This document shows, piece by piece, positions 2,872 to 10,735 of a stretch of DNA of 12,383 nt. The translations under genes were made by a program, and so were the position numbers. The notes below the pieces were generated by a model that saw only the letters and a list, made by a program, of their open reading frames with translations, did not search any database and was not told where the DNA came from. The DNA is taken from NCBI GenBank assembly GCA_012274175.1, contig JAAOZZ010000317.1, positions 1 to 12,383 on the forward strand. Reading direction: 5' to 3'. The stretch's first letter is position 1. Each line of letters starts with the position of its first letter. The stretch comes from Betaproteobacteria bacterium (lineage in GTDB: Bacteria; Pseudomonadota; Gammaproteobacteria; Burkholderiales; Usitatibacteraceae).

Positions 2872-4840
<1,969 letters not shown>

Positions 4841-6369: not shown

Positions 6370-7692
6370 ATGAGCAACCGCGAGATGGTCGCGCGCAGTC
6401 TCGCGGCCGTATGGCACCCGTGCACGCAGATGAAGGCGCACGAGCGAGTGCCCCTGGTGCCCATCGCACGCGGCGAAGGCGCCTGGCTGCACGACTTCGA
6501 CGGTCGGCGCTAACTGGACGGTGTCAGCTCGTGGTGGGTCAACCGCTTCGGCCACGCGCACCCGGCGATCAACGCGGCGCTGCGGGAACAGCTCGACCTC
6601 CGCGAGCACGTGATGCTCGCGGGATTCACCCACGCACCCGCCGTGGAGCTGGCCGAGCGCCTCGCGCGGCTCGCACCCGGAGCGCTGGGCCACGCGTTCT
6701 TCGCCTCCGACGGCGCGTCGGCCACCGAGATCGCCCTCAAGATGGCGTTCCACTCGTGGGCCAACCGGGGACGCCCGGAGAAGTCGCGCTTCGTGGCGCT
6801 GCAGGGCGGCTACCACGGCGAGACCGTGGGCGCCCTGGGCGTGACCGACGTGGCCATCTTCCGCGACGCCTACGCGCCGCTGCTGCGCGCGGGGCTCGTC
6901 GCACCCTTCCCCGCGAGGCATGCGGACGACCATCGCTTCGGCGGGATCCGCGGCGCCATCGACGCGGCCGACGCGCTGCGCAAGCTCCTGGCCGAGCGCC
7001 ACGGCGAGATCGCGGCCCTCATCGTCGAGCCCCTGGCCCAGGGGGCGAGCGGCATGCGCTTCTACCATCCCGAATACCTGCGGCGGGCGCGCGAGCTGTG
7101 CACGCGCTACGAGGTGCTGCTCATCGCCGACGAGATCATGACCGGGTTCGGGCGCACGGGAACGATGTTCGCCTGCGAGCAGGCGGGCATCGCCCCGGAC
7201 CTGATGTGCCTGTCGAAAGGGATCACGGGAGGCTACCTGCCGTTGTCGTGCGTGCTCGCGACCGACGCGGTCTACGGCGCCTTCTACGACGATCGCGTGG
7301 AGCGCGGCTTCCTGCATTCCCATTCGTACACCGGCAACCCGCTCGCCTGCCGCGCGGCATGCGCCGTGCTGGACCTCTTCGAGCGCGAGGACGTGCTGCG
7401 CGCCAACGAGGCCAAGGCCGCCCGCTTCATCCAGGCCGCCGCACCCCTCGCGCATCATCCGGGCGTGCGGGACTTCCGCCACCTGGGGATGATCTGGGCC
7501 TTCGAGGTGGAGAGCGACCATGCCGACTTCGCCGCGCGCGCCTTCGCGCTCGCGCTGGAGCGCGGCGTGCTGCTGCGCCCGATCGGCAAGACCGTCTATT
7601 TCATGCCGCCCTACGTGGTCGACGACGCGCAGTTCGCGCTGCTCGTGGATGCGGGCCTCGCCATCGTCCAGGCGCTGGGGACCGGCGCATGA
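6370..7692 (+). pseudogene. bioA: Adenosylmethionine-8-amino-7-oxononanoate aminotransferase (BioA), interrupted by an in-frame TAA
   Basis: BioA is the PLP-dependent aminotransferase that uses S-adenosylmethionine to convert KAPA to DAPA in biotin synthesis. The frame from ATG 6370 gives 440 codons, the family length, and matches throughout: WHPCTQM, then SSWWVN (substrate pocket), HVMLAGFTHAPAVEL, GYHGETVGALGVTD, the PLP-site Asp in DEIMTGFGRTG, and the Schiff-base Lys in LSKGITGG. One defect is present: codon 48, in DGRR-TAA-LDGVSSWW, is TAA (6511-6513). Relatives commonly have Tyr here, one base away as TAC. Ending there leaves 47 residues; restarting at GTG 6607 or ATG 6610 would lose SSWW. 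No frameshift or other damage is seen, so the lesion is very recent, recoded, or a sequence error. The stop overlaps the dacB start (ATGA). Confidence 0.9.
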
Positions 7693-9116
7693 CCCGCCTC
7701 GCCTTCATGGTGCTCCTGCTGGCTTCCCTCGGCGCCGGCGCGCGCGACCTGCCCAAGACCGTGCGCGAGGCCCTCGCCTCCGCCGGCGTGCCCGCCTCGG
7801 CGGTGGGTGTCGTGGTCGCACCCGCCCAGGGCGGGCCGCGCCTGATCTCGGTGCGCGCCGACGCGGCGATGAACCCCGCTTCGGTGCTGAAGCTCATCAC
7901 CAGCTACGCGGCGCTCGACCTGCTGGGGCCCGCCTTCACCTTCCATACCGACGTGCTCCTCGACGGCAAGCTCGAGGGCGGCGTGCTGAAGGGCAACCTC
8001 GTGTTCCGCGGCGGGGGAGACCCGGGGCTCACCTACGAGCGCCTCTGGCAACTCGCCCACGGGCTTCGCGCCCGCGGCCTGCGGGAGATCCGGGGCGACG
8101 TGATCGTCGATCGCGGCTACTTCGCGCCCGCGCCCTACGACGCCGGGGAATTCGACCACGAGCCGCGCCGCGCGTACAACGTGGGCCCCGACGCGCTGCT
8201 GGTGAACTTCGACGCCGTGGACTTCCGCTTCATCCCCGGCGCCGAGGGCGTCCAGGTCACCGGGGAGCCGGACCTGCCCAACGTCGAGATCGCGAGCCAC
8301 ATCCGCTCCGTCGACGGCGACTGCGGCGCGTGGAGGCACGACCTGCACTACGACATCGAAGACAACGGGCTCGTGGCGACGGCGGTCTTCTCCGGCAGCT
8401 ATCCGCGCGCGTGCGGCGAGCGCACCTGGCCCCTCTCGGTGTTCGACGGGCCCCGGTTCTTCGAGTCGCTCTTCCGCTGGATCTGGAGCGAGGCGGGCGG
8501 CACTTTGCGCGGAAGCGTGCGCTCGGGTGCCACGCCCCCCGGCGCCCAGCCGTTCCTGCGCCACGAATCCGAGCCGCTCGCGAACCTCGTGCGCGACATG
8601 AACAAGTACTCGAACAACGTGATGGCGCGCCACCTCTTCCTCGCGCTGTCAGCCGAGCGGCTCGGGGGAAGCGCGCAACTTCCCGCGAGCGGGCGCGTGG
8701 TGCGCGACTGGCTCGCCGCCCGGGGAATCGATGCCTCGGGGCTCGTGCTCGACAACGGCTCGGGGCTCTCCCGCGAGGCGCGCGTAAGTGCCTCCATGCT
8801 GGCCGCGGTCCTCGCGAGCGCCTGGTCCGGCCCGCTCATGCCGGAGCTCGCCGCCTCGCTTCCCGTATTCGCCGTGGACGGCACGCTGAAGGACCACCAC
8901 GCCCCCGGAGCGGCCGGAATGGCGCACCTCAAGGGCGGCACGCTCACCGGGGTGCAGAGCATCGCCGGATACGTGCTCGACCGGCGCGGCCGCCGGTGGA
9001 TCGTCGTGATGATGGTGAACCACCCCAACGCCAACAACGCCGAGCCCGCGCTCGATGCGCTCGTGGCGTGGGTGAGCGCGCTGGGCGCGCCGCGGGCCGC
9101 GGGAGGAGGGGGATGA
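7689..9116 (+). CDS. dacB: D-alanyl-D-alanine carboxypeptidase/endopeptidase, PBP4 type (peptidase S13)
   Basis: The protein has 475 residues. An N-terminal signal peptide is evident (MTRLAFMVLLLASLGAGA, cleavage probably after AGA at residue 18), so it acts in the periplasm on peptidoglycan, cutting the terminal D-Ala and cross-bridges. The penicillin-binding motifs are SVLK (65-68, nucleophile Ser65 in NPASVLKLITSYAALDLLG), SNN (308-310 in KYSNNVMARHLFL), and KGG (415-417 in HLKGGTLTG). The third motif is KTG in most of the family, so the middle residue is unusual here. The downstream part NGSGLSREARVS and the C-terminal AGYVLDRRGRRWIVVMMVNHPNA are typical of S13 enzymes. The start overlaps the bioA stop and the stop overlaps the aidB start, both as ATGA, indicating translational coupling. 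Confidence 0.92.
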   Translation: MTRLAFMVLLLASLGAGARDLPKTVREALASAGVPASAVGVVVAPAQGGPRLISVRADAAMNPASVLKLITSYAALDLLGPAFTFHTDVLLDGKLEGGVLKGNLVFRGGGDPGLTYERLWQLAHGLRARGLREIRGDVIVDRGYFAPAPYDAGEFDHEPRRAYNVGPDALLVNFDAVDFRFIPGAEGVQVTGEPDLPNVEIASHIRSVDGDCGAWRHDLHYDIEDNGLVATAVFSGSYPRACGERTWPLSVFDGPRFFESLFRWIWSEAGGTLRGSVRSGATPPGAQPFLRHESEPLANLVRDMNKYSNNVMARHLFLALSAERLGGSAQLPASGRVVRDWLAARGIDASGLVLDNGSGLSREARVSASMLAAVLASAWSGPLMPELAASLPVFAVDGTLKDHHAPGAAGMAHLKGGTLTGVQSIAGYVLDRRGRRWIVVMMVNHPNANNAEPALDALVAWVSALGAPRAAGGGG

Positions 9117-10735
9117 GCGGCGATACCCACGACGTTTCCAACCAGCCGCCGCCGCGGGGCGAGTACGACGCGTTCTCCGGCGACACGTGGCTTCGCGACG
9201 GCCTGCGGCGCACGAGCGCGGCCTGGGTCGACGGGGCGGCGGCCGACCTCGGCCGCTTCGTGGGCTCGGCCACCGCGCGCCACCACGCGCTCCTCGCCAA
9301 CCGCCACGGGCCACGCCTCGAGACCCACGACCGCCTCGGGCACCGCATCGACGAGGTCGAGTACCACCCGTCGTACCACGCCCTCATGGCGCGCGCGATC
9401 GGCGCGGGCGTGCACTCGGCGGCGTGGAAGCGCGAGCGCGGCGGCTTCGCGGGCCGCGCGGCGCTCTTCTACCTCTGGAACCAGCTCGAGCAGGGCACCG
9501 CGTGCCCGGTGACGATGACCTTCGCGTCGATCCCGATCTTCGCCCATGCGCCCGATCTCGCGCGGGAGTGGCGGCCCAAGGTCCTGGCCGATGCGTACGA
9601 TTCGCGCCTTGCGCCGCTCACCGAAAAGTCCGGTGTGACCATCGGCATGGCGATGACGGAGAAGCAGGGCGGCTCGGACCTGCGGGCGGTGCAGACGGCG
9701 GCGCAGCACGACGGATCCGCGTACCGGCTCACGGGCCACAAGTGGTTCTGCTCCGCGCCCATGAGCGACGGCTTCTTCACCCTCGCCCGGCAGGCCGAGG
9801 GGGTGAGCTGCTACTTCGTGCCGCGCACGCTTCCCGACGGTACGCGCAACACGCTCCTGATCCAGCGCCTGAAGGAGAAGGTGGGCAACCGCTCGAACGC
9901 CTCGGCGGAGATCGAGTATCGCGACACCTTCGCGTGGCCCGTGGGGGAGCCGGGCCGCGGCATCGCCACGCTGATCGAGATGGCGCACCACACGCGCTTC
10001 GACATCGTGGTGGGCATCGCCGGGATGATGCGCTCCGCGCTCGACGAGGCGCTGCACCACGCGACCCATCGCGCGGCATTCGGAAAGACGCTCTCGGAGC
10101 ACGCGCTCATGGGCAACGTGCTGGCCGACCTCGCGCTCGAGGCGGAAGCGGCGCTGCTGCTGGCGCTGCGCCTCGCCGCGGCATTCGATGCTTCCCGGGA
10201 CGATCCGCGGGAGCGCGAGCTGCAGCGCGCGCTGACCCCGGTGGCCAAGTACTGGCTGTGCAAGCGCATGACGGCGGTGGCGGTCGAGGCGATGGAGTGC
10301 CTGGGCGGCAACGGCTACGTGGAGGAGTCGCCCCTCGCGCGTCTGTATCGCGAAGCACCCCTCAACGGCATCTGGGAAGGCAGCGCCAACGTGATCTGCC
10401 TGGATGCGCTGCGGGCGCTGGGCCGCTCGCCGGACGCGTTCGCCGTGCTGGCCGCGGAGATCGAATTCGCGCCAGATCAGCGCATCCGCGCGCGGCTGGA
10501 CGCCGCCCGCAGCCTGCTCGCCGATCCCGCGGCCGCGGAGTCCGGCGCCCGCACGATCGTCGAGGCGCTGGCGCTCGCCGCGCAGGCCTCGCTCATGAAG
10601 CGATATTCCGACCCGGCGGCCGCCGAGGCCTTCTGCGCGTCGCGACTGGACGATGGATGGGGTGCGAGGAGCCTGGGAACGCTCGCCGCGGGAACGGACT
10701 TTCGCGCCCTCTGGACCAGGGCCGAGCGCCGCTAG
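9113..10735 (+). CDS. aidB: AidB-type acyl-CoA dehydrogenase family flavoprotein (DNA alkylation response)
   Basis: The protein has 540 residues, almost exactly the length of E. coli AidB (541) and much longer than ordinary acyl-CoA dehydrogenases. Similarity runs along the length: THDVSNQPPPRGEYD near the N-terminus, HPSYHALM, CPVTMTFASIPI, MTEKQGGSDLRA (from 181), GHKWFCSAPMSD (from 208), FVPRTLPDG, LKEKVGNRSNASAE, TRFDIVVG, AMECLGGNGYVEES and RLYREAPLNGIWEGSANV (410-427). AidB binds FAD and DNA and is linked to protection against alkylating agents; isovaleryl-CoA dehydrogenase activity has been reported as weak. Its start overlaps the dacB stop as ATGA, preceded by a GGGAGGAGGGG Shine-Dalgarno. 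It is the last gene of the operon and its TAG shares a CTAG with the convergent hemerythrin gene. Confidence 0.93.
   Translation: MSGDTHDVSNQPPPRGEYDAFSGDTWLRDGLRRTSAAWVDGAAADLGRFVGSATARHHALLANRHGPRLETHDRLGHRIDEVEYHPSYHALMARAIGAGVHSAAWKRERGGFAGRAALFYLWNQLEQGTACPVTMTFASIPIFAHAPDLAREWRPKVLADAYDSRLAPLTEKSGVTIGMAMTEKQGGSDLRAVQTAAQHDGSAYRLTGHKWFCSAPMSDGFFTLARQAEGVSCYFVPRTLPDGTRNTLLIQRLKEKVGNRSNASAEIEYRDTFAWPVGEPGRGIATLIEMAHHTRFDIVVGIAGMMRSALDEALHHATHRAAFGKTLSEHALMGNVLADLALEAEAALLLALRLAAAFDASRDDPRERELQRALTPVAKYWLCKRMTAVAVEAMECLGGNGYVEESPLARLYREAPLNGIWEGSANVICLDALRALGRSPDAFAVLAAEIEFAPDQRIRARLDAARSLLADPAAAESGARTIVEALALAAQASLMKRYSDPAAAEAFCASRLDDGWGARSLGTLAAGTDFRALWTRAERR

Follow-up and report, generated by a model that had tools for sequence, protein, structure and literature searches.

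The window, a stretch of DNA of 12,383 nucleotides, is one entire contig (C434) of a draft genome and carries an interrupted bioA followed by dacB and aidB (Table 1). The bioA frame begins with an ATG at 6370 and, apart from codon 48, is open up to a TGA at 7690–7692. The in-frame TAA that the original prediction placed at codon 48 of this frame is confirmed in the assembled letters. Taken as a whole and read through the stop, the frame reaches 531.7 bits against TIGR00508, whose cut-off is 405, and is the best match in the genome; the portion 3′ of the stop scores 434.5 bits on its own. By score the protein is thus a member of the BioA family, and the nearest database protein besides the window's own fragment, P0002, is 89% identical to it (among the best 120 of 8000 scored). 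It differs from the family in that its frame is not uninterrupted, with the TAA at codon 48, and in having Arg at two conserved hydrophobic columns. On the minus strand of the window, a frame at 573–2453 joins a protein kinase domain to a universal stress protein domain.

Table 1 Positions of bioA, its unusual codons and its neighbours in the window
Feature	Position	Strand	Remarks
bioA frame (adenosylmethionine--8-amino-7-oxononanoate transaminase)	6370..7692	+	440 codons, one in-frame TAA
In-frame TAA, codon 48	6511..6513	+	Read in the assembled letters; without counterpart in the relatives examined
Codon 59, Arg	6544..6546	+	Column is Leu in 119/119 close proteins and Leu/Ile in 108/108 loci
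Codon 78, Arg	6601..6603	+	Column is Leu/Val in 119/119 close proteins and Leu/Val/Ile in 108/108 loci
Perfect inverted repeat, 9-nt arms, 5-nt loop	6600..6622	.	Overlaps codon 78; window sequence
359-aa open frame 3′ of the stop	6613..7692	+	ATG at codon 82; GTG at codon 81 would give 360 aa
dacB (Peptidase_S13)	7689..9116	+	ATG overlaps the bioA TGA
aidB (AidB_N and acyl-CoA dehydrogenase domains)	9113..10735	+	3′ of dacB

Codon 48 was compared with two sets of homologues. In a panel of 109 bioA loci from relatives, which are not all independent because some genomes are present twice, 108 cover the column; it holds Tyr in 96, Phe in 6, Leu in 3, Ile in 2 and Val in 1, and none has a stop. 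Among the 119 closest BioA proteins in the database, a set from which the window's own 359-residue fragment was excluded, the residue is Tyr in 118 and Phe in 1, again with no stop. The claim that relatives commonly have Tyr therefore holds (96 of 108 loci, 118 of 119 proteins), yet the column also accepts several hydrophobic residues. The label Usitatibacter sp. is attached to several of the nearest proteins in the database, and of the genome records that bear a name, Betaproteobacteria bacterium GR16-43 gives the top match. The original prediction had also named an intact codon in all sibling genomes as the mark of a sequence error or a strain-specific change. At the genus level this is largely what is seen: bioA is intact in four of five congeners, and the fifth, an incomplete assembly, gave no match at 1e-80. 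A same-species sibling, intact or stop-bearing, was not found with either the full frame or the 359-residue form as query (best 120 of 8000 scored in each case). On these alignments the stop is private, no relative examined having it.

The TAA is not the only unusual codon in the frame. The statement that bioA has no other lesion proved wrong, since codons 59 and 78 both encode Arg where all compared homologues have Leu, Ile or Val. The window's BioA has five private residues, and four of them (codons 48, 59, 77 and 78) fall within 31 codons; random placement produces such clustering in 0.5% of trials, in a test that was picked after the pattern was seen. Comparable features occur among the 119 other BioAs: five likewise have at least four private residues in 31 codons, with totals of 9–17 private residues each, and seven have at least one charged residue at a hydrophobic column. 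The arms of the inverted repeat that overlaps codon 78 (6600–6608 pairing with 6614–6622) are imperfect in the six relatives that were inspected by eye. A repeat that is perfect in the window but imperfect in these six relatives resembles the outcome of quasi-palindrome-templated changes.

The genome assembly comprises 3,143,817 bases in 479 contigs, is 80.56% complete and 1.45% contaminated, and is probably metagenome-assembled. A second copy of the bioA neighbourhood was not found in it. Other genes of the genome were searched for inner stops; the four further class III aminotransferase matches, the two bioF-model matches, the three bioB-model matches, the 14 AMP-binding matches and the 20 of 60 ABC_tran matches listed are all free of them. 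Because no other inner stop appears among the matches listed, the assembly is not error-ridden in general. A codon-usage scan for interrupted genes covered the window and a further 16 stretches, in all 174,755 bases once two masked stretches were removed. It flagged 19 stops, none of which was judged by eye to interrupt a gene; this is weak evidence because at the threshold used the bioA stop itself went undetected. In GroEL, which the bioA contig also encodes, there is no private residue, but the same is true of 81 of the 120 GroELs compared, the window's included, so that this control is weak in both directions. The protein database records the identical GroEL protein (2872–4518) from two contigs, whereas the window's assembly has one full copy of the region; the second contig may belong to a different assembly of the window's species.

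Four other biotin genes of this genome are intact. The genes bioF, bioD and bioC, which the original prediction had singled out for checking, lie together with bioB on contig C338, and each of the four scores above its family cut-off and is without an inner stop. In the congeners, bioF is above its cut-off in three of five; of the remaining two, one, an incomplete assembly, matches in part, and the other gives no match at 1e-60. There is no obvious substitute for BioA, such as the other aminotransferase that the original prediction suggested might fill in: no second bioA exceeds the TIGR00508 cut-off of 405, with the four other class III matches in the genome at 117–349 bits. A BioY uptake gene was not found in any of the six genomes of the genus, in a search whose control was positive in 9 of 14. 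With bioB, bioF, bioC and bioD intact and BioY not found, loss of bioA might be costly. Selection on the bioA frame as a whole looks normal in these comparisons: dN/dS is 0.216 between this frame and that of G001, and 0.23 and 0.37 against G003 and G010, compared with 0.20–0.47 among five pairs of intact bioA relatives. Being averaged over a long branch, these ratios are silent on a very recent loss.

The original prediction offered three readings of the TAA: a base error, which we favour; a fresh nonsense mutation, which stays possible; and a tolerated or recoded stop, which the evidence does not support. On balance, and with limited confidence, we judge that a local consensus or strain-mixture error explains the stop. 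The TAA and the two Arg codons at hydrophobic columns would then all be local bad sequence in a draft genome, with read errors or a mixture of strains having become fixed in the consensus. The stretch would have been thinly covered, the cause would lie in sequencing or assembly rather than in the cell, and the living organism would most likely have an ordinary working bioA. Consensus errors occur in draft and metagenome-assembled genomes, and the changes seen here are likewise private, clustered and limited to a single stretch of a single contig, which makes them a candidate for such an error only. We favour an error because the draft is fragmentary, the stop is private and a 31-codon span holds two further improbable residues besides it; the clustering of these residues beside the stop is the chief reason for preferring it to a real allele. 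An error is in keeping, too, with a dN/dS against G001 inside the range of the intact pairs, an average over a long branch, and with the intact bioB, bioF, bioC and bioD. Against it, five of the 119 other BioAs show comparable clusters of private residues, and the assembly is not visibly bad in general, as no other inner stop appeared among the matches listed. The same observation suggests that the assembled bases are mostly right, and it counts, with the presence of the TAA in the assembled letters and the failure to find a second bioA above the cut-off, in favour of a real and very recent nonsense allele. Such an allele would cut BioA to 47 residues and abolish synthesis of 7,8-diaminopelargonate, so that the cell would take its biotin from neighbours while bioB, bioF, bioC and bioD remain. 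To this we give somewhat less than an even chance: the improbable residues are gathered near the stop and not spread along the frame, the other four biotin genes are intact in a genome in which BioY was not found, and no stop-bearing sibling is among the best 120 of 8000 scored. An elaborated form of the same idea, in which a population of a Usitatibacter relative would have undergone a clustered mutation shower in bioA (the stop and two Arg codons within 31 codons, one Arg apparently completing the hairpin) and become a new auxotroph that keeps bioB, bioF, bioC and bioD and is fed by its neighbours' biotin, seems to us improbable.

The two remaining readings would leave a working enzyme. Translation might restart at codon 81 or 82 and yield a still-functional BioA of 359–360 residues; an in-frame GTG and an in-frame ATG do lie 3′ of the stop, 97 and 100 bases past it, and the 359-residue product retains a PF00202 match. 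However, this product is without the WHPCTQM and SSWW segments, both invariant in the 12 sequences compared and both of which we take to have a role in the active site, and by eye there is no clear ribosome-binding site ahead of codons 81 and 82. We regard a restart as very improbable. In the protein database the 359-residue form is a singleton, found on the window's contig (best 120 of 8000 scored). The BioA of another organism, P0242 (359 residues, 84% identity, on a contig of 1650 bases), begins at the same Met as the window's fragment, through either the end of its contig or a similar truncation; as a second truncated case it was set aside, since the shared start may just be the contig end. 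Alternatively, the TAA might be read through or recoded, by a suppressor tRNA, by readthrough or by reassignment, so that full-length BioA is made. The frame is open to its end 3′ of the stop and relatives tolerate several hydrophobic residues at codon 48, but TAA still terminates genes in this genome: among 165 closed genes in the 174,755 sampled bases, 94 end in TGA, 61 in TAG and 10 in TAA, and one of the TAA-ended frames is presumably a thiolase, ending in the C terminus usual for that enzyme. Nor is the stop conserved in relatives (none of 108 loci and none of 119 proteins), and there is no further inner stop among the matches listed. No tRNA with a TTA anticodon is present among the 31 of 32 tRNA matches typed by ARAGORN in this roughly 80% complete genome, whose missing fifth might hold a suppressor; the 32nd, partial and located at a contig end, received no type from ARAGORN. 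A tRNA-Leu with anticodon taa was considered as a suppressor and rejected, as it decodes UUA. On stop usage, tRNAs and relatives together, recoding of TAA or a new genetic code was set aside as unsupported, and we give this reading almost no credence.

Lesions in biotin operons are already known in nature, so that even a real allele would be ordinary. In natto-fermenting Bacillus subtilis, one study reports that bioW carries a nonsense mutation and bioF a deletion (PMC4624242), a precedent that favours a nonsense allele in the window and shares with it a single stop in one step of the biotin pathway. In the natto strains, however, according to the same study, the lesion is common to several sequenced strains and is accompanied by the bioF deletion, whereas the window comes from one draft genome with no sibling, in which those other bio genes that were found are intact. 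The study also reports that one of the strains carrying the bioW stop is prototrophic for biotin, and that the authors blame auxotrophy mainly on the bioF deletion (PMC4624242); a stop alone is thus not proof of auxotrophy, which weakens the case for a nonsense allele with that consequence. No title or abstract opening among the literature matches listed treats this bioA lesion. Under either reading the stop in bioA is ordinary and of a kind already known. Automatic annotation calls for caution here, as it would list BioA as a 359-residue protein or the biotin pathway as broken, and the organism accordingly as a biotin auxotroph, all on account of a single private codon that has two further improbable ones near it. 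If the stop is real, it is a further instance of a free-living bacterium coming to depend on a vitamin.

The arrangement of bioA and dacB, the latter said to start on the bioA stop, is as described: the ATG at 7689 overlaps the TGA at 7690–7692. It also recurs elsewhere: dacB lies 3′ of bioA in all 12 loci checked, and in 10 of them bioA ends in a stop/start overlap (ATGA or GTGA), two genomes being counted twice in this set. A lowering of DacB and AidB by early termination in bioA, as put forward in the original prediction, is possible.
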